In this document: positions 1 through 17,054 of the stretch, one piece after another | Layout of the letters: every line of letters begins with the position of its first letter | Numbering within the stretch: position 1 is the first letter of the stretch | Source: Novakomyces olei | Taxonomy: Eukaryota > Ascomycota > Novakomycetes > Novakomycetales > Novakomycetaceae | Length of the DNA: 64,000 bases | Direction of reading: 5' to 3' | Assembly: GCA_016906335.1 (NCBI GenBank) | Contig: JADEYG010000001.1 | Coordinates: forward strand, 1 to 64,000 | The notes under the pieces: model-generated | What the model was told of the DNA's origin: nothing | Seen by the model: only the letters and a program-made list of their open reading frames with translations | Databases searched by the model: none | Position numbers and translations under genes: made by a program

Positions 1-174
1 CTAACTAACCCTAACTAACCCTAACTAACCCTAACTAACCCTGACTAACCCTAACTAACCCTAACTAACTAACCCTAACTAAACCCTGACTAACCCTGAC
101 TAACCCTGACTAACCCTAACTAACCCTGACTAACCCTAACTAACCCTAACTAACCCTAACCTAACCCTAACCTT
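1..174. repeat. Telomeric repeat array at the chromosome end
   Basis: Tandem 10-nt units CCCTAACTAA with interspersed CCCTGACTAA variants, ending in irregular CCCTAA/CCTAA units before unique sequence starts near 175. The C-rich strand reads inward from the end, as expected for a left chromosome end. On the G-rich strand the units are TTAGTTAGGG and TTAGTCAGGG; the latter is the known Yarrowia lipolytica telomere unit. The inner edge overlaps the 3' end of the TLH-like reading frame. Confidence 0.96.
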
Positions 175-5687: not shown

Positions 5688-5994
5688 GTGAATTTCCTTG
5701 CCGTCGTCGCGATTTTTACCATATATTAACCTGGAATTATGCAGTAAAATCTACCCTCGAAAACCCTGTTTGACTATTTGTTATTCAATTCTTATTAGAA
5801 TTACGCCGTAATTCGCGACGACGAGCAGCAAATTCACATGACCCCCCTCCCATACATTAATTAATTTTCAAACTGGAATTACGCCGTAATTCTACGTAGA
5901 ACACCCTAACAAAAAATATAGCTAATAAAAACTACGATACATATATTTCGAATTACGGCGTAATTCGCGCAGGAATATGTATAGCTGCCTGAAC
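5688..5994. repeat. Modular hairpin repeat, copy 2
   Basis: Inverted arms at 5688-5711 and 5814-5837 pair over 8 and 10 bp with a 6-nt mismatched centre. Inside are AATTATGCAGTAAAAT, AAAACCCTG (5760-5768) and the palindrome AATTACGCCGTAATT. After CATGACCCCCCTCC come a second AATTACGCCGTAATT (5876) and a third AATTACGGCGTAATT (5951), ending in GGAATATGTATAG. The same terminal motif closes the copies at 18873 and 19874. Element A starts immediately after it. Confidence 0.8.
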
Positions 5995-8784
5995 CAGCAA
6001 AGCTGAATGGGCATTCTATGACCCACAGAGAATTCCAATCTTGGAGAACCTCTATGGTCAAATGGCTTACTTATGCGAAGACAGGAGGAAATGTTACAGG
6101 AATCTCAGACATTGATCTCATCAGTATGTTTCTGGAATCAAACGCATTAATCTATGCAGAAGAACTTAGAGACAATGACAACTTGACGGCTAACCAAATG
6201 CTGGATCATCTGGAACGAAGCATTGTTCCCAACGATTACCTGCCAAAAGCCTACAGCAGATTTGTTACATTTTCCCAAGGAACGAGAAGCATCAGTCAAT
6301 ATGCTACACAACTTAAGCTCAAGTCAATGGAACTAGAAATAATTAATGAAGCAATATTGGTTCAACAATTCATTCATGGACTCAATGAGAAGATAAAACC
6401 ACAAATAATGGGATCTTTGAGAAGCGCATTTGGCAACCAGCCTGGCAACAATACTGGGATGACGAAATGGAAATGGCAGAGTGTGGTAGAAGTCGCAACT
6501 GGCTATGACTTTACTGCAACAAGACCATACATTGGAAATATCGCTCCAAGACCAAACAATCAACGAATTGAAGCTAGAACAAGCATGTCAGAGAAAAAGG
6601 AGCCAGAGAAACCTTCACTGAGAACGAGATGTACATTTTGTCGCAGAACTGGACACACGTATGAACAATGTTTCAAACGAAAGAATGAATCAACCATTAG
6701 TGCTCTCAAAGATGACGATGAAATGGATAGCGAAGAAATAAGATTGGATTATCAATGCTCTGCTGTTCAAAGCAAAAGCCAACAGTTTCTCGTAAATCTA
6801 CCAATTGAAGTAAATGGTAAAGAGATCAAATGTCAAGCCCTTATTGATACAGGAAGTGACATTGATGTTATTGATTCAAATTTCTGCAATGTTCACAAAC
6901 CAAAGTATGAAGAGAGTGACCACAAAATTCAAATGGCATTTCAAGGATCAAAGACAATCAGCAGATATATGGCTAGAATAAAATTCAAAGGAAATGAATT
7001 AAATTGTGCAGTAGCCAGACTGCGAACTTCTGATCTCCTAATTGGTATGGGAACCTTGAGCAAGTTAGGAGCAATAGTCAACACCAGCAGAAGACAGGTC
7101 AAATGGCAGATGAACAAAGATACAGAAAGCATTTACGAAGACCAAAGCATTCCAGTGGTTAGCTCCATAACAATCGATCCGAAGAAGAAAATTGAGGCCA
7201 AATCAATTACAAATGAAAACGCAATTGATTCAGACAAGGTACTGGAACTCTTACAAGAGAATTTTCCACAAACCTTGATCAAAGAACCTCCAAGCAAGTT
7301 ACCAATTATGAGACCAGTCGTGGCAACTTATGAACCAATTGATCCAAACAAGAAATATAACATCAAAAAATGGTATCCAAGCAAAAAGCTTATGATGCCT
7401 TTAAAGATGAAAATTGATGATCTATTACAAGCAAAAATGATATCAATATCTACAGAAGAACCTAGTGCAATATTATTCCCAATTCTTAAAGACAAAGAAA
7501 TGGTGAATAAACTTACCAATCCGAATGAGATTAAGAATTATTTACGATTTGTCAATGATGCTCGACCTCGCAATACAAATATGAAGCGATTTTACATTCA
7601 AGTACCGCGAATTGACATAGTTGTTCAGGACATAGCCAGAGCAAAGTATCGAACAAAAATTGATCTAAAGGATGCTTTCTTTCAATCTCGAATACAGCCT
7701 GGGCAAGAACATTATACAGCATTCTGGACACCATTTGGTATTTATCAATGGAATGTGATGCCACAGGGTGATCGAAATTCCACTGCAATACAACAACAAC
7801 TAATGGAGGAACTATTCAGACCATATATTGGAATATGGATGACCGTTTATGTTGACGACATAATAATATATGATGACGATGTCCAAGAACATCTGGATCA
7901 CTTGGTACTTGTATTTTGCATCATGGCCAAATGGGAATTGTATGCCAGTCCAACAAAGACCTTTCCATTTTGCAGAAGCTTTGTTGTGTTGGGAAGACAA
8001 ATCAGTGACGAAGGAATCAAAATGACCGACAAGTCAAAAAATTCCATACTAAAATTACAAGCCCCAAAGAACTTGAAACAAGTACAGAAATTGGTCGGAA
8101 TGCTTAATTGGGTATCAACTTTTATACCAAACTTATCCTCTCAAATTTCCATATTCACAGAAATGAAAGAATTTCATTGGGACGAAACGAAGCAAAAAGG
8201 GTTCAATGAAATTAAAAAAGCAGTCGAACAAGACATAGTGCTAAAACCATTTGAACCAGAACCCCTAAACAATGGCACAGAAAAATTGTTCATGGGAATA
8301 GATGCTTCGCTAGTCGGAACTGGAGGATGGCTAGGACAAGGAAAAGAGTGGCAAAGCTGCCGAATAATTGGATTCACTTCTAAGAAATTGGGCACAGCAG
8401 AGTCACATTACCCAGTTCACGAGCTGGAATATCTTGCATGCATCAGAGCATTAGATCACTTTGAAATATATGCCAGAGGGTATCAAGTAAATTGCTTAAC
8501 AGACAATAAGGCGCTAAGTCGTCTTCTCTATTCGAAAAACGTTATGTTATCAAGACGACATCTGAGATGGATGGACTTTTTAAATGAATTTGACATCAAC
8601 ATCATACATGTATCGGGCACGGCCAACGTTTTGGCAGATATATTGTCACGATCGCCTCCTGAATCAAATGTGTCCGCAATTAGCATGGAACAAAGTCCTG
8701 TCACACATCTGGAAATAAAAAATCTTTACCTAAATGATCCGTATTGGGCTGAAGTACTAACTTCGCTGAAAAATACTGATACAA
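5995..8784 (+). mobile_element. Ty3-type LTR element A, gag to RNase H part
   Basis: One reading frame (6018-8798) holds Gag with a CCHC knuckle (CTFCRRTGHTYEQC), an aspartic protease motif (DTGSD), reverse transcriptase (YVDDII) and RNase H (GIDASLVGTGG, TDNKAL). The integrase part lies beyond element B at 15319-16783. No 5' LTR was recognised between the hairpin repeat and the frame, and the element is split by a nested insertion, so it is an incomplete fossil. Codon use is A-rich compared with element B. Confidence 0.88.
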
Positions 8785-9173
8785 TGTCACGAGTGTGACA
8801 TGGCCTTAAGTAAGACAGCGAATGCTGCATTACTTAAGGATAAGGACTATATAGTTTTATATAGTATTTCATAGCGATAGCACTAGGTAGTGCTATACAG
8901 CACCACCTTGTGCTATTACTTAGTTCCATAGAAGTCGTAGTGTATAAAAGGCTTCGCGGAAGACTTTTTACACTACGCAATATCATAAGCTACAACGTGA
9001 AGTCTCCAGGTGTCTTAGGAGAATAGGCTTAGCTTCTAGCTGTAGTTCCCTTAGTCTTCACTCACCGGAACCCCTATCGAAAGGCAGCGTGCTATCTGCC
9101 GCCCAAGGGGATTACTCGTTGTCGCGGCTGAACTCAAGCCGTGAGTCACCTAGTTGCGGGCCGACCCGTAACA
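8785..9173 (+). repeat. 5' LTR of element B
   Basis: Begins TGTCACGAGTGTGACA and ends GACCCGTAACA (TG...CA borders). It holds a TATA box (GTATAAAAGG, 8942) inside a near-perfect inverted repeat at 8937-8977, which would fold the region around the transcription start. Sequence matches the 3' LTR throughout, implying recent insertion. Confidence 0.95.
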
Positions 9174-9269
9174 GTATATTGCGTCCACGTATTCGATACC
9201 GGTTCGGATCGAGTGGGTGAAGAGAACGAATCGAGAGGAAGTGCTAGTCAGTCAAACTAGGCTTACAAG

Positions 9270-10193
9270 ATGGAACAAGTTGATGTATCAGAGTTGAACC
9301 GTTTTTACCGAGCAACAGAGGAGAGATTTGCGATAATGGAAGCGGAAAACAAGTCTTTGAAAGAAAAGTTGCGTAGGGGTCAGAACGAGTTGGACCCGCG
9401 CGAACGAACGAAAGTTTTGGAGCCGAAGATGGCTAGTCCGCCCTTGTTCACGGGCGAGAGAAGTAAAGTGGATGAGTATTTGACTCAGGTGAAAATGGTG
9501 GTAACAGCGCAGCCGCAGCGATACGCCACGGACCGTGCGCGAGTTATGTTTGCCGCCTCTTTCCTGAGAGGCATTGCCTTTCGTTGGTTTAAGCCTTTTG
9601 TTGCAAAGAACGACCCGGCAATGCTCGATGATTTTGAGCGGTACTGTGACAGCATCGAGAAGCTGTATGGTGACCGAGACATGCGCGCTTCGGCGCAGAA
9701 GGAGATAAGAAGGCTACGTCAGAAGGGTTCAGTCGCTCAGTATGCGTCTGATTTTGAACGTCTTAGAGCCTATTTCGATTGGAACAACGAAGCGTTGGTG
9801 TCCCAGTTTATGGAGGGACTGAAAGATTCGGTGAAGGACGAGCTCGCTCATTCAGAGCCGCCCACGGAGCTGAGCGAATTGATAGATCACTGCATCAGAA
9901 TCGATACGAGGGTGTACGAGCGTGAAAAAGATAAGTCGCGTTTTCGAGGCAGGTTGGAGCCACGCCGCCCAGAACGTACAAGCAATTACACGCCTATGGA
10001 AATTGACACTGTGAGCGAGAAGAGAGTACCCGAAAGGAAGTCGATGTCTACGGGTGAGAAGAAATGTTTTAATTGCGGAAGGGCAGGTCACTTTGCAAGA
10101 CAATGCAGAGACAACACTGTTAACTTCAAAGGCCGAGAGTATGGCTACGCAGATGAAAACTCACGAGAAGCAAAAAAAAAAGAGAGAGCCTAA
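9270..10193 (+). CDS. Gag protein of element B
   Basis: 307 residues. A coiled-coil-like N-terminus (residues 1-45) is followed by the Ty3-type capsid region with ATDRARVMFAASFLRG, FKPFV and YASDFERLR. A CCHC zinc knuckle (CFNCGRAGHFARQC) lies near residue 270. The start ATG lies about 100 bp after the 5' LTR. An A-rich stretch near the end of gag precedes pol, which lies in a different frame. Ty3-family elements are known to express pol by programmed frameshifting at such a junction. Confidence 0.92.
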   Translation: MEQVDVSELNRFYRATEERFAIMEAENKSLKEKLRRGQNELDPRERTKVLEPKMASPPLFTGERSKVDEYLTQVKMVVTAQPQRYATDRARVMFAASFLRGIAFRWFKPFVAKNDPAMLDDFERYCDSIEKLYGDRDMRASAQKEIRRLRQKGSVAQYASDFERLRAYFDWNNEALVSQFMEGLKDSVKDELAHSEPPTELSELIDHCIRIDTRVYEREKDKSRFRGRLEPRRPERTSNYTPMEIDTVSEKRVPERKSMSTGEKKCFNCGRAGHFARQCRDNTVNFKGREYGYADENSREAKKKERA

Positions 10194-10201
10194 TTCAAAC
10201 G

Positions 10202-13200
10202 ATGGTAGAATTGGGCGGAAATGAAAATGCCATCAATGAAGAAGAGCATAGAATTGCGTCTGCACGAGCGGACTATGGGCATTGCGAAGTAAAGGTAGAG
10301 ATCGAAGGCATAACGACGCCCTTGAAAGGTCTAGTTGACTCGGGGGCATCTTCGAATTTCATTCATCCACGTTTGGTGTGGAGGCACAAGATTAAAACCG
10401 AAAGCCTACGCCAGCCTATTGTTCTTAAGGTTGTTGACGGAAGATGCATATCGTCTGGACCGATTCAACGCCAGACAGAGACTCTAAAATGCGTAATTCA
10501 AGGGAAAGAAACTCCTACAAAGTTCAAGGTTACCGAAATTGGCGAACACGACATTATCTTGGGGATTTCGTGGCTTAAAGAATATAATCCGCGAATCAAT
10601 TGGTCTACGTCTACTGTCGAATTCGAGAACAAGGAGCCTGACGTTAAAACGGAGTATGTTTGCGCAACTATAGTGGAATCCGAGTCAGAGCAACCCGGTG
10701 CGGTAGTACTGCCAGAGGAATACCAGGATTTCAAGGACGTTTTTGGCAAGGCAGAGGCAAATCAGCTCCCACCTCATAGGTCGTTTGACCACGAGATCAA
10801 GCTAGAAGCAGACTCTAAAATACCATTCGGACCAGTGTATGCTATATCTAGAGATGAGCAGGAGGAATTGCGAAAATATCTTGAAGAAAACCTTGCTAGA
10901 AGATTCATTGCGCGCTCTACATCGCCAGCCGGAGCCCCAATCCTATTCGTCAAGAAAAAGGACGGCAGTCTCCGTTTGTGTGTCGATTACCGAGCGCTGA
11001 ATAAGATAACAGTGAAGAATAGGTACCCACTACCACTTATTGATTCGCTCTTGGACAAACTATCTGGAGCCAAGTGGTTTACGAAGATTGATCTACGCGG
11101 GGCCTACAATCTTATTCGTATAAAGAAGGGGGACGAGTGGAAGACGGCTTTTCGCACTCGTTTTGGTCACTTTGAATACCGAGTAATGCCGTTTGGGCTG
11201 ACAAACGCCCCGGCCACGTTTCAGGACTTCATGAACGACACATTTCGTGATTTACTAGATATTACAGTTTTGGTTTATCTAGATGATATTCTAGTCTATT
11301 CAAAAACTAAAGAGCAGCACATTTATGACGTACGCCAAGTTTTGGGAAGGCTACGCGATCGAAAGTTATATGCTAAAGGCGAAAAATGTGAATTCCATAA
11401 ACAAGAGGTGTCATTTTTGGGTTACGTATTGTCTGTTACTGGAGTGTCTATGAGCAGGGACAAGACAGAGCCTATTGCGACTTGGCCAGCTCCAAAATCG
11501 GTACATGACATACAGGTATTTTTGGGATTTTGCAACTATTATCGGCGCTTCATACCGAACTTTGCGAAAACGGTGAAACCGATCACGAATCTATTAAAAA
11601 AGGACACACCCTTTTGTTGGAATGACGAAAGTGAGCAGGCTTTTAAAGCATTAAAAGACCTATTTGCTAAAGAAATTATGTTGCGACATTACGATCCGGA
11701 GAAACAATGTGTATTGGAGACTGATGCCTCCGACTACGCATTGGGAGCAGTGTTGCTACAAGAAAATGAAAACGGAAGAGAACCAATTGCATTTATCAGT
11801 CGGCAGATGGAAGCAGCCGAGATAAACTACGATATATATGAGAAGGAATTGTTGGCAATTGTTTGGGCCTTTAGGACTTGGCGCCATTACCTCCAAGGCC
11901 ACCCAAAGAAGATTATCGTTTACACGGACCACCGTAATCTTCAAACTTTCACGACGGCAAAGGTACTGACGCGTCGACAAGCTCGCTGGCAAGAAACGCT
12001 GGCCGAATATAGCTTCGACATCGTTTACAGGCCGGGCATCAACAATGGAGGGGCAGATCCTCTCAGCCGACGGCCAGATTACGCTTTAACTAAAGATGGC
12101 AGCCACAGTAAGGCACAATTCCAGCCATTGCTATCGTCAAGCCAGCTGAAATGCTTTGCAACAGATGAGACCCAGCTTCTTGACGAGAGAAATTATGCTA
12201 AACCAAAGGAACGCAGGAGAATATTGGAGGCGTTCCACGACCACCCACTGGCAGGACATTTTGGCGAGGCCAGAACTCTGGAACTGATCACCAGGAATTA
12301 CAAATGGGACGGTATTACAAGAGATGTAAAGGAATATGTCAAAAATTGCCCTACATGCATTCGAAATAAGGTATCCCGAAGGATCAAAGCCGGCATGCTA
12401 CAGCCACTGAAGATTCCGGACAGGCCTTGGTCGTCAATATCAATCGATTTTATTGTTAAGTTACCTATTTCCGATGGTTACGATTCAATCCTTGTTGTAG
12501 TGGACCGTTTCTCGAAAATGGCGCACTTTATACCGTGCAAGGAAAAGATTTCTGCTACAGAAGTGGCATATTTATTTATTAAGCACATTTTCCGACTACA
12601 CGGCCTCCCCGAAGAAATAGTATCGGACCGAGATACTCGTTTTGTTAGTAAGTTCTGGACTGCACTAGCCGAAAATCTACAAATAAAGCTATGCAAATCC
12701 ACGAGTCATCACCCGCAAAGCGACGGGCAGACCGAAAGAACGAATCAGACCCTTGAACAATACTTGAGGTGTTACATCAATTATAATCAGAACAACTGGG
12801 CACGATTATTGCCGTTAGCTGAGTTTGCTATCAATAATGCACAAAGTGCCAGTACTAAAATGTCTCCATTTTTTATTGCCGTTGGTTATCACCCACGATT
12901 TTCTTACGAGTTTCAAGCCACGAGCAATGTACCGGCCGCAAATGAGTTTACCGCGAAACTCCAGGAAAGATTTATGACTTTACGCGCCGAGTTACAGAAG
13001 GCTCAAGACCGAATGAAATTTTATTACGACGCTAAGCGACGCGACGCCGCTACTTACCAGCCAGGCGACCTAGTTTGGATTAGAAGACAGCACATTAAAT
13101 CCAAAAGGCCGTCAGACAAACTTGACCATACAAAAATTGGTCCCTTTCCCGTATTGGAAAAAATTGGCACGAGCGCATACCGTGTTAAACTGCCCGCGAC

Positions 13201-13471
13201 CATTAGAATCCATCCCGTGTTTAACGAAACACTGCTGGAACCGCACAAAGGAGATCGTTTTTCACGAGACGCGTCCAGTGCAACCGTACCTGACGTTATC
13301 CAAGATGAGGAAGAATTCGAAGTAGACTACATATGCGATCACAAGGGATCGGGCTCGACAAGGCGCTATTTGGTTCATTGGAAGGGTTATACAGAAAATG
13401 ACCGCACATGGGAACCGGTAGCGAACTTAGGAAACGCTAGCGAAGCTTTAGCAGAGTATCTTAAACGCTAA
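10202..13471 (+). CDS. Pol polyprotein of element B (protease, RT, RNase H, integrase, chromodomain)
   Basis: 1,089 residues. In order: retropepsin motif VDSGASSNFIHP (about 45), RT with LVYLDDILVYS (about 358), RNase H with ETDASDYALGAVLL (about 508) and TDHRNLQTF, integrase zinc-binding His-His/Cys-Cys region (HPLAGHFGEARTLELI, CPTCIRNK), the D,D-35-E core (SIDFIVKLP, VSDRDTRF, HPQSDGQTERTNQTLEQYL), and a C-terminal chromodomain (RYLVHWKGYTENDRTWEP). The chromodomain marks it as a chromovirus, a group that targets heterochromatin, which fits the subtelomeric position. Confidence 0.95.
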   Translation: MVELGGNENAINEEEHRIASARADYGHCEVKVEIEGITTPLKGLVDSGASSNFIHPRLVWRHKIKTESLRQPIVLKVVDGRCISSGPIQRQTETLKCVIQGKETPTKFKVTEIGEHDIILGISWLKEYNPRINWSTSTVEFENKEPDVKTEYVCATIVESESEQPGAVVLPEEYQDFKDVFGKAEANQLPPHRSFDHEIKLEADSKIPFGPVYAISRDEQEELRKYLEENLARRFIARSTSPAGAPILFVKKKDGSLRLCVDYRALNKITVKNRYPLPLIDSLLDKLSGAKWFTKIDLRGAYNLIRIKKGDEWKTAFRTRFGHFEYRVMPFGLTNAPATFQDFMNDTFRDLLDITVLVYLDDILVYSKTKEQHIYDVRQVLGRLRDRKLYAKGEKCEFHKQEVSFLGYVLSVTGVSMSRDKTEPIATWPAPKSVHDIQVFLGFCNYYRRFIPNFAKTVKPITNLLKKDTPFCWNDESEQAFKALKDLFAKEIMLRHYDPEKQCVLETDASDYALGAVLLQENENGREPIAFISRQMEAAEINYDIYEKELLAIVWAFRTWRHYLQGHPKKIIVYTDHRNLQTFTTAKVLTRRQARWQETLAEYSFDIVYRPGINNGGADPLSRRPDYALTKDGSHSKAQFQPLLSSSQLKCFATDETQLLDERNYAKPKERRRILEAFHDHPLAGHFGEARTLELITRNYKWDGITRDVKEYVKNCPTCIRNKVSRRIKAGMLQPLKIPDRPWSSISIDFIVKLPISDGYDSILVVVDRFSKMAHFIPCKEKISATEVAYLFIKHIFRLHGLPEEIVSDRDTRFVSKFWTALAENLQIKLCKSTSHHPQSDGQTERTNQTLEQYLRCYINYNQNNWARLLPLAEFAINNAQSASTKMSPFFIAVGYHPRFSYEFQATSNVPAANEFTAKLQERFMTLRAELQKAQDRMKFYYDAKRRDAATYQPGDLVWIRRQHIKSKRPSDKLDHTKIGPFPVLEKIGTSAYRVKLPATIRIHPVFNETLLEPHKGDRFSRDASSATVPDVIQDEEEFEVDYICDHKGSGSTRRYLVHWKGYTENDRTWEPVANLGNASEALAEYLKR

Positions 13472-13599
13472 AAAGTTTCATGCTGAATTATTTTATTTGA
13501 TTTTTGTTTAATGACGGCGGTATTTCAACCATACTGTCCTAAATTGCGAGCAGATGTTATTCAACTACTATGCAAACTGTTTTATTATACCGAATATTC

Positions 13600-13635
<36 letters not shown>

Positions 13636-13689
13636 GGGAAAACTGCGTGTTTGCATCGTTAATATATGTAATGTATGAGTTAGCACGAT

Positions 13690-13775
13690 ATAGTCCTAAG
13701 TCACACACACTAGTGCCAAGTCACACACACTGGTGCTTTCTGGAACATTCCCACACAGAAAAACTATAAATACAG
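13690..13775 (+). promoter_or_regulatory. Candidate internal promoter for ORF3 of element B
   Basis: A tandem duplication of about 20 bp (AAGTCACACACACTAGTGCC then AAGTCACACACACTGGTGCT, about 13698-13738) is followed by a TATA box, CTATAAATAC (13764-13773), about 55 bp upstream of the ORF3 start. This arrangement looks like a stand-alone promoter rather than part of a genomic transcript. A long A-run lies just upstream at about 13602-13632. Confidence 0.5.
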
Positions 13776-13825
13776 TCGCACCCCCCGGTGCTATATCACT
13801 ACTTTACACACATATTTTTGAAATT

Positions 13826-14680
13826 ATGGAGGGACAAGAAATCGACTTGACAGCCGACCTTGAGGAGGGGGGTGAGCGCCCGCAAAAGCGATCGCGGGGC
13901 GCTAAGAATGTTGGAGAGCACATCTGCGCTCTCTGTCACAAAGGTCTTGGCAGAAAACAAGAGCTGCACCGACACCTAAAAGAAGTTCACCACGTTGACT
14001 TTAGACTGGCTGAACTTGTGTCGGAATGGGACCTCCGAACGTCGCGCATGCCGACCCACCGGACGGGTAGGAACATACTTTGGGCCGCGGCGGCTAAGGA
14101 GCATACATGGCTTGAGACCGTTACAGAGTCTTGGAAAGACTGTTTCGAGCGGGAGCCAACGTGGCCGGTCGTCATGGAGGACGTTACGCAACACGACCTT
14201 CAACTTTTTAACATCCGCGACCGAGCAAGATACACGGATATTTCGGTGGCTCGGTTCGTGGCGGGGTTCGTTTACGGCGCGGAGAAAATCGAATGGTACG
14301 CGGCTTACAATGTGCCGCCCTCGACGCAGGGCTTACTAACCTTGAGCCCGAGGGCCCTACCCGCTACAAATAATTACAAAAACCGCCCCGAAACGGACTG
14401 GAGCACGGTGGTCTCTCCGGCTGGGACGATCACGGACATACACGTGGACAACGTATTCTTGAGTCACGTGCTGGTTTGCGTGCTGGGAAGGAAATTGGTA
14501 TTCGCCTGGCCACCGTCGGCTGCGAACCTTGACTACTTCGCGCAGTACCACCACAAGGTGGGGGATATGTTTTTGTACCAGGGCATTCATGAGCTCCAGG
14601 GGCTACATGTTTGTGACCTGAAGAAGGGATTCGGCTGCTACATGGGACCCGGTTGGCTCTATGCAGTGATCTCCTTGTAA
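13826..14680 (+). CDS. ORF3 of element B: C2H2 finger plus JmjC-like domain
   Basis: 284 residues from the ATG at 13826; the frame stays open upstream to 13733, but the TATA box favours this start. Residues 1-25 are acidic then basic (EEGGERPQKRSRG). A C2H2 finger follows at about 35-57 (CALCHKGLGRKQELHRHLKEVHH). The C-terminal half resembles JHDM1/PHF8-type JmjC domains: SPAGTITDIHVDN supplies the His-x-Asp motif, and VLGRKLVFAWPPSAANL and a GPGW box follow in the expected order. JmjC proteins are usually Fe(II)/2-oxoglutarate histone demethylases; whether this one is active was not judged. It occupies the env position on the same strand as pol. I know of no standard Ty3 component like it, so capture from the host is likely. 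Confidence 0.65.
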   Translation: MEGQEIDLTADLEEGGERPQKRSRGAKNVGEHICALCHKGLGRKQELHRHLKEVHHVDFRLAELVSEWDLRTSRMPTHRTGRNILWAAAAKEHTWLETVTESWKDCFEREPTWPVVMEDVTQHDLQLFNIRDRARYTDISVARFVAGFVYGAEKIEWYAAYNVPPSTQGLLTLSPRALPATNNYKNRPETDWSTVVSPAGTITDIHVDNVFLSHVLVCVLGRKLVFAWPPSAANLDYFAQYHHKVGDMFLYQGIHELQGLHVCDLKKGFGCYMGPGWLYAVISL

Positions 14681-14929
14681 AACAGTGCGCTCACTGGTTA
14701 CAGCGAGATACCAGTTGGGCAGGAAAACACTGTAGAACGCCTAGTGAAGTGGGAATTGGAGACACTGTCGGCGGATTCGGACAACTCCGTGGCATTGGCA
14801 AATGTCTACGAGGAGCACACGATTGGGGCTCAGGAATGGAGAAGAGCCAGAGTGAAAGGGGCAGATAGATTAGGTAGAATCAGTAGAGAAGGCCTCAAAG
14901 AATTAGAGCCCACCCTGGGAGGGGGGTAA

Positions 14930-15318
14930 TGTCACGAGTGTGACATGGCCTTAAGTAAGACAGCGAATGCTGCATTACTTAAGGATAAGGACTATATAGT
15001 TTTATATAGTATTTCATAGCGATAGCACTAGGTAGTGCTATACAGCACCACCTTGTGCTATTACTTAGTTCCATAGAAGTCGTAGTGTATAAAAGGCTTC
15101 GCGGAAGACTTTTTACACTACGCAATATCATAAGCTACAACGTGAAGTCTCCAGGTGTCTTAGGAGAATAGGCTTAGCTTCTAGCTGTAGTTCCCTTAGT
15201 CTTCACTCACCGGAACCCCTATCGAAAGGCAGCGTGCTATCTGCCGCCCAAGGGGATTACTCGTTGTCGCGGCTGAACTCAAGCCGTGAGTCACCTAGTT
15301 GCGGGCCGACCCGTAACA
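14930..15318 (+). repeat. 3' LTR of element B
   Basis: Copy of the 5' LTR with the same length (389 bp) and, by eye, the same sequence. It is preceded by a purine-rich tract (GGGAGGGGGGTAA) that would prime plus-strand synthesis and is followed by the TACAA target duplicate, after which element A resumes. Confidence 0.95.
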
Positions 15319-17054
15319 TACAACTATTGATTTTAAACGAGCACAAGCAAAGTATTATCTAAAAGATGACCTGATACATCTCAAATTTGATAACCGCATT
15401 TGTGTGCCTACAGATTTCACTAACACGATAATACGGGAGTTTCATGATACGTACCATGGAGGACATGGGGGAATGAACAAGACAACAGCTGGAATAGCAA
15501 AAACCTACTATTGGCCAGGAATGTCAAAAGAAATCAAGGAATATGTGAAATCATGTGAGACATGTGCCAAAAATAAGATCACTCCTCACAAACCATACGG
15601 ATTGTTACAAGAAATAGATATCCCCAATACTAGATGGGAAACTATTGGAATGGACTTTATCACTGGACTACCTCTATCTGGTGATGAGCAATATGATGCT
15701 ATTATTTGTATTGTTGACCGACTTACAAAAAGGGCACACTTTTGGCCAACACACACTACAGTCACTGCAAAAGGCACAGCAACTTTATTTCTCAACAGAT
15801 ACTATTGCCTGCATGGACTACCACAAGCCATAATAAGCGACAGAGATGTGCGATTCATGTCAGCTTTTTGGCAACAAATTACAGCCATTCTTCAAATCAA
15901 ATTGAAACCATCATCAAGTTATCATCCTCAGTCGAATGGACAAACTGAGCGAACAAACAGAGTACTAGAAGATTATTTGCGACTATTCACATATGCAAAT
16001 AACAACAGCTTATCATGGCACAAGCTGCTTTCATTTGCTGAATTCAGTTATTCATCAAGCAAGCACTCTGCCATTGGCATGACGCCGTTTGAAGCTGATT
16101 TAGGTTACAATCCAAGAAGCCTAAGTGACCTTGCCATACCTCCAATCACAAACCAAGATGATTCAACATTTCTCGAAACTCTTGAGGTAAACAGAATTCT
16201 TTGCCAGGATGCAATCAGAACCGCACATGAATTATCAAAGATATATGCGGACCAAAACCGAATAAACATTGAATACAACGTCAATGATTCTGTTTATTTA
16301 AGCACCGCTAATATTCGCGAAATTCCTGAGCTTTTCCAAAATCAACTAACAAGGAAATTGCAATCAAAATTCATTGGACCATACAGAATTATAAAAAAGG
16401 TCAGCCCTGTTGCTTACGAATTGGAGCTACCTTCTGCTTTAAAGTATCACCATGTGGTACACATCTCTCAGCTAAAGAAACATACTCCAATGAACAAACA
16501 CAACCAGCGAGAACAACCTAAACCGAAAGCACTCCGACGCTACAAAAACAACACGGAGCTTTATGTCGTCGAAGAAGATCATGTCTGGGTTCGAGGACAA
16601 TCGAGATCGACAACACCAAAACCGGGCTACAAACTAATGTATCGTATTCGCTGGGAAGGTTACCAACCTGAAGACGACACGTGGGAACCAAAGCAGCACC
16701 TAGTACATTCACCCGAATTATTAAAAAGATACAATTCGACACACCTCGAATTAGTGGGGGAGGATGTTAGGAATCAAGATTGATCTAATCAAATCTAATC
16801 AAGATTGATCTAATCAAATCTAATCAAGATTGATTACTCATCAATGAGTCATCATTACTCATCAATGAGTCATCATTACTCATCAATGAGTCATCATTAC
16901 TCATCAATGATTCATCATCATTACTCATCATTTCCTTCCTATTTCCTTCCTATCTCCGTCCTATCTGCTTCACAAAAAGTCTATAAAAGGACCCAACTTC
17001 CCATAGTCTAAAAGATAGATCTCTTAGCGAGGTCTAATTTATATTGTTACAACA
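15319..17054 (+). mobile_element. Ty3-type element A, integrase, chromodomain and 3' LTR
   Basis: A reading frame (15404-16783) holds the integrase zinc-binding region (HDTYHGGHGGMNK, CETCAKNK), the catalytic core (GMDFITGLP, ISDRDVRF, HPQSNGQTERTNRVLEDYL) and a C-terminal chromodomain (YRIRWEGYQPEDDTWEP). A purine tract (GTGGGGGAGGA, 16754-16764) precedes a probable LTR, 16765-17054. That LTR begins TGTTAGGAATC, has a TATA box CTATAAAAGG (16981) and ends TTACAACA. Its U3 is built of short tandem repeats (CAAGATTGATCTAAT units, then CATTACTCATCAATGAGT units to about 16920). The LTR end is less certain than its start. Confidence 0.8.

Follow-up and report, generated by a model that had tools for sequence, protein, structure and literature searches.

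The window analysed here, by which we mean the whole stretch of 64,000 nucleotides, comprises positions 1 to 64,000 of the forward strand of contig JADEYG010000001.1 from Novakomyces olei (assembly GCA_016906335.1). It starts with a telomeric repeat and contains nested Ty3 elements. The repeats at chromosome ends (window 1-170 and the 3' end of locus L053) are a mixture of GGGTTAGTTA and GGGTTAGTCA units, reminiscent of Yarrowia, and a 345-amino-acid frame on the minus strand at 4585-5622 matches OrsD above the Pfam cut-off (PF12013, 2.9e-7), with BED and C2H2 matches that are sub-threshold. The element of interest, at 8785-15318, is of the chromodomain Ty3 type and has a third gene, ORF3, between pol and the 3' LTR; it is inserted in an older Ty3 element, the frames of which are found at 5985-8784 and from 15319 onwards. 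Its features are as follows:

8780-8784 (left) and 15319-15323 (right), no strand: target-site duplication TACAA, from sequence reading
8785-9173, plus strand: 5' LTR of 389 bp, TG...CA, with 100% identity to the 3' LTR
9270-10193, plus strand: gag, a Ty3-type capsid with a CCHC knuckle (Pfam Retrotrans_gag 2.8e-16, Ty3_capsid 3.2e-12, zf-CCHC 2.7e-6)
10157-13471, plus strand: pol, with protease, RT, RNase H and integrase (Pfam RVP_2 4.8e-11, RVT_1 1.2e-39, RT_RNaseH 2.3e-39, Integrase_H2C2 1.4e-20, rve 4e-9)
13316-13468, plus strand: chromodomain at the integrase C terminus (Pfam Chromo 3.9e-12; MPP8 chromodomain E=5.5e-10)
13472-13825, plus strand: pol-ORF3 spacer with a long A-run, a 20-bp tandem duplication and TATAAATA, from sequence reading and comparison of spacers across families
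13826-14680, plus strand: ORF3 of the window copy, 284 amino acids, ending early (367 in three sister copies)
13919-13990, plus strand: C2H2 zinc finger of ORF3 (Pfam zf-C2H2_4 below cut-off; pattern in 7 of 7 families)
14393-14671, plus strand: JmjC core with Thr203, His206-x-Asp208 and Lys223 present and Tyr at 279, from alignment and profile matches
14681-14929, plus strand: remaining ORF3 frame past the early stop, ending in the polypurine tract, from an HMM match
14930-15318, plus strand: 3' LTR, from the paired repeat

With its Ty3-order pol, C-terminal chromodomain, and LTRs flanked by a short target duplication, the window element is a Ty3/Gypsy chromovirus. The LTR pair is 100% identical across 391 aligned bases and the element is therefore young, as an earlier note on this DNA had proposed. 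Gag and pol overlap at 10157-10193 in different frames (-1), where a run of ten A (10172-10181) is a candidate frameshift site. The chromodomain of the integrase, which the same note had recognised, finds that of MPP8 as its best match among solved structures and is also like the chromodomains of SUV39H1, CDY and HP1, all of which read H3K9me. Phenylalanine, tryptophan and tyrosine occupy what we take to be its aromatic-cage positions.

The in-frame gene reported between pol and the 3' LTR is present, starting with an ATG at 13826 in a frame that is open from 13700 and stopping at 14678-14680 after 284 residues. The tandem 20-bp duplication described ahead of it was also found, at 13698-13737, with 18 of 20 positions identical, and in one family (H) the same spacer holds a tandem repeat of about 70-80 bp (L036 8283-8433, 82% identical). 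The gene had further been credited with a TATA box of its own, which stands as a motif only: TATAAATA occurs at 13765-13772, 61 nt upstream of the ATG, and TATA[A/T]A occurs 61-88 nt upstream in five of the seven intact families introduced below (A, B, E, G and H, not C and D), the spacers being AT-rich.

Searched alone against the PDB with phmmer, the window ORF3 protein matches KDM2A first (E=7e-4, residues 190-282). A JmjC-only family profile of eight sequences matches 15 PDB chains when matches are counted up to E=1, and the best 12 of these are KDM2 and KDM7/PHF8 demethylases (KDM2A 3.1e-6, the KDM7 homologue 3n9l 3.7e-6, KDM7A 1.2e-4, PHF8 1e-3), the other three being a Cupin 2 barrel protein (1.8e-3), LIC10831 (4.9e-3) and SPy1581 (0.82). 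Within the host genome, hhalign of the ORF3 profile with a KDM2-like protein (L048) gives 96.3% (E=1.8e-9, 26% identity over 100 columns; reversed control 0.1%) and, on the same hhalign measure, 23% with another JmjC locus (L047); when the frames of four host JmjC loci (L045, L046, L047 and L048) were searched with the family profile using hmmsearch, only L048 was listed. All nine rows of our alignment (A1) share Thr203, His206, Asp208 and Lys223, and eight have His279, for which the window copy has a Tyr, while the HxD...H iron ligands are kept in intact representatives of seven families. The conserved Thr, HxD, Lys and His align with residues of the iron and 2-oxoglutarate sites of KDM2A, of which the Thr and Lys bind 2-oxoglutarate and the others iron.

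The Pfam JmjC model does not reach its cut-off on ORF3, matching one of eight members with a best E of 0.14, and the weak Pfam matches favour Cupin_8, Cupin_1 and Cupin_2 over JmjC; a search relying only on Pfam would have overlooked the domain. We nevertheless place ORF3 in the KDM2/KDM7 JmjC group because of its profile matches and active-site residues. In front of this core, residues 32-55 contain the pattern C-x2-C-x12-H-x4-H, which is kept in families A, B, C, D, E, G and H; the Pfam matches of single proteins to this finger are all below cut-off, and the whole-family profile matches Zif268-type fingers at 1.3e-6. Pfam returned no match above cut-off to F-box, CXXC or PHD domains in ORF3 (one PHD_P300 match was sub-threshold, E=0.029), and structure prediction from the window protein alone, as a single sequence, gave a pLDDT of 33. 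By profile and active site, the ORF3 family can be assigned as putative KDM2/KDM7-type JmjC oxygenases with a C2H2 finger. The earlier note had read a C2H2 finger and a JHDM1-like JmjC core with an HxD from the letters, and both are upheld, the JmjC similarity having been recovered by profile search as well as with the single protein. An envelope-like gene was also considered for ORF3 and rejected, as it matches a JmjC enzyme instead.

The window copy is a broken member of a well-conserved gene. Three sister copies (L002, L003 and L004), which a survey for the same frame showed to carry ORF3, are 99% identical to the window protein over its 284 residues and run 83 residues further to the 3' LTR, giving 367 amino acids, and in these intact copies the stop codon directly adjoins the LTR. 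Past the premature stop of the window copy the frame is still open, and a search of its frames with the family profile gave a match at 14681-14926 (E=3.2e-15). Relative to the three sisters, the window copy has 23 private substitutions between 12326 and 15317, of which 4 are in the integrase/chromodomain, 1 in the spacer, 6 in ORF3, 7 in the ORF3 tail and 5 in the LTR, a count that leaves out insertions and deletions, most of which fall in the spacer. Being truncated and having Tyr rather than the third iron ligand at the distal position, the window protein is unlikely to be an active demethylase. The earlier description of a histone-demethylase-like protein holds for the gene family and is not supported for this copy. 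As the insertion is recent and its ORF3 is nonetheless broken, the gene either broke after insertion, is supplied in trans or is dispensable; with functional ORF3 lost, the window copy would depend on its sister copies or be disappearing.

All the evidence on ORF3 elements comes from one genome assembly (14.34 Mb, 15 contigs), where a search with the window ORF3 as query gave at least 42 matches, this and the other counts from that search being lower bounds. Intact frames are found in seven families (A, B, C, D, E, G and H, of which C is a single copy) and an eighth, F, is broken; compared with the ORF3 protein of family A, those of the other families show 24-31% identity. Using tblastn of gag, PR, RT, IN, the chromodomain and ORF3 against the fetched loci, ORF3 was placed downstream of the chromodomain in family after family, and the chromodomain is present in all eight ORF3-bearing families. 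There are at least 95 integrase matches, and 63 of them extend to the end of the chromodomain (position 440 in a query of 449). Among those reaching it, 25 are at least 51% identical to the window integrase, and 22 of these 25 have ORF3 within 3 kb downstream. Of the three exceptions, two are family X copies and the third is an H-type element on contig C7 that is split by a nested insertion and has an ORF3 further on, in two frames. The idea that ORF3 is a host gene struck by insertions was rejected on the grounds of this downstream position.

No ORF3 of their own was found by the window-ORF3 search in any of the 38 integrase matches of 50% identity or less, and the sensitive family profile, which was run on fetched loci only, found none in five of their 3' ends (L031, L035, L042, L054 and L055, each fetched completely or partially). 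Downstream of one of the 38, on C7, an ORF3 match follows at 2.5 kb; we read this match as the remainder of the interrupted H element. Conversely, for 14 of the 42 ORF3 matches the 3 kb upstream contain no listed integrase match; most of these 14 are partial, and they include L029, a full-length G-type frame with a piece of RT upstream, and L043, with a chromodomain upstream. A decayed, family-A-like copy with several stops (L008/L028) lies on the 27 kb contig C10. Family X, of which two copies were examined, has no ORF3, its pol being followed by ~500 bp of AT-rich DNA, a polypurine tract and the LTR, and since it belongs to the same clade ORF3 is not essential to every element. Where its relatives have ORF3, family X (L052, L053 and L058) has a long (AAT)n/poly-A stretch, which offers a natural comparison.

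ORF3 copies tend to lie towards contig ends and near one another. With thresholds chosen by hand and 36 of the 42 matches used (the two on C10 and four that are second pieces of one copy being excluded), 29 copies have another at a distance of 100 kb or less (mean 14.2 and maximum 25 in 2000 random trials), and for 14 a contig end is at most 65 kb away versus 2.7 expected (random maximum 9 in 2000 trials), although this clustering may equally reflect purging from gene-rich DNA. Outside the genome, no homologue was found by a single-protein search with 1173 candidates or by a search with the nine-row alignment in which 7991 candidates were scored, and none of 24 pattern matches in viral_contigs or 15 in genome_contigs was confirmed; these collections are mostly prokaryotic or viral and the result therefore says little about fungi.

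The history of ORF3 was compared with that of the elements that carry it, using trees of RT plus integrase (integrase only for families C and II3). A first tree, which had 17 rows and included a distant outgroup, did not separate the ORF3-bearing rows from family X and left its base unresolved among family A, family X, B+C, D-H and the ORF3-less elements. With the distant row dropped and the remaining 16 rows rooted on ORF3-less chromodomain elements, the ORF3-bearing rows, including the interrupted H element (branch lengths 0.004 and 0 from H), are set apart together by a branch whose support of 85/92 is just below the threshold of the program; family X is their sister, and the clade including X is separated at 100/100. 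The tree of the ORF3 proteins has the same unrooted branching as that of RT and integrase, with supports of 82 to 100. The simplest account of these trees would be a single gain on the stem of the ORF3-bearing group followed by vertical retention; an earlier gain with subsequent loss in family X is a less simple alternative that could still hold.

Computation shows ORF3 to be under purifying selection. Eight dN/dS pairs were computed and the three within-family pairs used give 0.26 (A versus L005, 307 codons), 0.18 (E pair, 295) and 0.17 (G pair, 333); the value for A versus the window copy (0.44) rests on five changes, and the four between-family pairs were left unused, three being saturated and G-H having a dS of 3.2. 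The gene is also fitted to its element: in five of seven families (A, C, E, G and H) the frame stops at the junction between polypurine tract and LTR, in D it stops just ahead of the tract, and in B it passes the junction, the LTR starts being defined by paired repeats in A, E, G and H and by sequence motif alone in B, C and D. Upstream of the gene, the H spacer between pol and ORF3 (L030) contains sequence resembling the polypurine tract/LTR junction of the same family (GAAGGGGGAGTAATG); in the A spacer, a long A-run is followed by GGGGGG (window 13603-13640). Possibly these are relics of an older 3' end, which would hint at how ORF3 came to be added downstream of pol.

The host encodes an H3K9 methyltransferase, a chromodomain-SET protein closer to Clr4 (E=3.4e-82) than to DIM-5 (1.2e-46), and an Argonaute-type Piwi domain (4.7e-100). 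There is also a chromoshadow match (6.4e-8), which we do not count as a full HP1 because no chromodomain was seen in the same frame, and a search of the host genome for C5 DNA methylases gave no match. Taken together, these findings suggest that silencing in this fungus is probably by H3K9 methylation, in which case the appropriate defence for an element to carry would be a JmjC enzyme rather than one of TET type.

We lean towards the view that ORF3 is an integral accessory gene that would provide the element with a histone demethylase of its own, countering H3K9me silencing. The gene probably goes back to a single capture, with a KDM2/JHDM1-type gene as its most likely source, and would have been fused to, or acquired with, the C2H2 finger. 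Its product would be a putative Fe(II)/2-oxoglutarate-dependent JmjC enzyme, most likely demethylating histone H3 on the chromatin of the element, with H3K9me as the first candidate substrate and H3K36me as the second, and the finger would help to keep it at element DNA. The integrase chromodomain may bring new copies into H3K9me heterochromatin, where they would be safe but silenced, and ORF3 may relieve this silencing enough for transcription. Computation established the position, conservation, active-site residues and purifying selection of ORF3, the branching it shares with pol, and the H3K9 methyltransferase of the host; we infer for ORF3 an enzymatic activity, a substrate, a nuclear site, a DNA target and a benefit to the element, and that it works like an anti-silencing factor.

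Other explanations have to be weighed against this. A JmjC protein may be an inactive scaffold or may hydroxylate substrates other than histones, and many JmjC/cupin enzymes are hydroxylases. ORF3 could be catalytically active as a 2-oxoglutarate oxygenase on something other than histones, such as a translation factor, a silencing factor or a protein of the element, which would suit the leaning of the weak Pfam matches towards the cupin models and the Cupin 2 barrel chain that scores about like PHF8 (1.8e-3 versus 1e-3). However, the best 12 of the 15 solved chains being KDM2 and KDM7/PHF8 demethylases, and the KDM2-like locus being the only one of four host JmjC loci that the family profile listed, make this unlikely. 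It is also rather unlikely that the demethylase acts at integration, opening H3K9-methylated target chromatin, found by the chromodomain, for the pre-integration complex. The resemblance of the chromodomain to those of MPP8, SUV39H1 and HP1, its presence in all eight ORF3-bearing families and the clustering of ORF3 copies, also near contig ends, are consistent with such a role, but ORF3-less chromodomain elements are numerous (the 38 matches of 50% identity or less, and family X) and many of them lie, by coordinates, in the same regions, so that ORF3 is not needed for insertion there.

Catalysis might not be involved at all, ORF3 being instead a heterochromatin factor that antagonises silencing by binding, as has been proposed for some functions of fission-yeast Epe1. 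A finger of DNA-binding type and a JmjC fold would suffice for this, and the window copy, without its distal His, sits in a recently inserted element; yet the iron and 2-oxoglutarate residues are complete in seven families at 24-31% identity to family A, a retention that would be unexpected without catalysis, and we regard this explanation as very unlikely. Most improbable of all, and strongly disfavoured, is that ORF3 is a functionless passive capture of a host gene, or an independent host gene family with chance insertions of elements. The host does have a KDM2-like gene, the window ORF3 is broken, and there are the 14 of 42 ORF3 matches without a listed integrase match within 3 kb upstream. 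Against this stand the same position in 22 of 25 elements, the fit to the polypurine tract, the branching shared with pol, dN/dS values well below 1 and the intact frames of seven families.

A more specific form of the proposal, which we put forward only tentatively and with considerable doubt, is that the ORF3 finger reads a repeated motif in the LTR of its own element and in the ORF3 promoter, and recruits the JmjC demethylase there. This would be a family-specific and histone-directed form of anti-silencing, with integrase targeting and ORF3 escape as a matched pair. In LTR plus spacer, GTGCTA occurs 7 times in family A versus 0.6 expected, ATCCGCAA has 4 copies in family B, and CGCTA occurs 7-8 times in families D, E and H versus about 2 expected; these words were chosen after looking and the motif analysis is exploratory. 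In an unbiased test of the top words against 200 shuffles, the numbers of shuffles reaching the observed value for 7-mers and 8-mers respectively were 1 and 25 in A, 4 and 0 in B, and 2 and 2 in G, with nothing found in C (15 and 22), H (35 and 46), or D and E (197-200). The ORF3-less family X gave 21 and 1, so repeated words exist there too. The short words that recur in the LTR and ORF3 promoter region of A, B, D, E, G and H are GTGCTA, ATCCGCAA, CGCTA and TAAGCAAC.

If the proposal is true, a retrotransposon lineage would be fighting silencing by histone methylation, whereas the known counter-silencing of transposons (VANC, TET/JBP) concerns DNA methylation, and it would do so in a fungus whose small genome encodes a Clr4-like enzyme and an Argonaute and gave no C5 DNA methylase match. 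How chromoviruses that target heterochromatin stay transcribable would become directly testable, in a system that offers a small protein whose active site is defined, ORF3-bearing and ORF3-less families side by side in one genome, and naturally broken copies as controls.

Searches of open-access literature, judged by titles and the beginnings of abstracts of the best 1 to 25 of the 2 to 161 papers found in each, gave no report of a JmjC gene in a retrotransposon. The earlier view that a cargo of JmjC and C2H2 is not a standard Ty3 component is supported. Fungal chromoviruses have the same gag, the same order of PR-RT-RNase H-integrase, a C-terminal chromodomain and a 5-bp target duplication (PMC3248453); the lineage in the window adds a third gene with C2H2 and JmjC, unmentioned in the accessible part of that paper, which does describe nested 'complex' elements with additional, unnamed domains. 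The available portion of a paper on Yarrowia elements likewise makes no mention of a third ORF (PMC5014426). The position of ORF3 has a parallel in bdelloid LTR retrotransposons, where an enzymatic, non-envelope gene also lies between pol and the 3' LTR (PMC5408684). The bdelloid enzymes, a GDSL esterase and a DEDDy exonuclease, are unrelated to the fungal ORF3, and in the main text of that paper, as far as accessible, 'histone' and 'demethylase' each occur 0 times.

As to the protein itself, KDM2/JHDM1 and KDM7/PHF8 have in common with ORF3 a JmjC core with T, HxD, K and the distal H, from which ORF3 differs by one C2H2 finger in front. In terms of proposed function, the nearest likeness is to the TET/JBP dioxygenases of fungal DNA transposons and some Helitrons, which are likewise element-borne oxygenases proposed to undo an epigenetic silencing mark, their target being DNA methylation according to the portion of the source available (PMC12730594); ORF3 is of JmjC type, in an LTR retrotransposon, in a genome without a C5 DNA methylase match. 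The VANC proteins of Arabidopsis VANDAL transposons are also encoded by the element and act against silencing, with targets that often form tandem repeats, but they induce loss of DNA methylation, and a JmjC domain goes unmentioned in what is accessible of that paper (PMC5735166). An element-borne gene for an enzyme of histone-lysine methylation is known from the SET-domain genes of Phytophthora HarbingerS and MuDR (cited in PMC12730594, as partly available); those are writers in DNA transposons, whereas ORF3 is a putative eraser. Set beside these systems, the ORF3 elements suggest a family that carries its own histone-demethylase-like tool against silencing.
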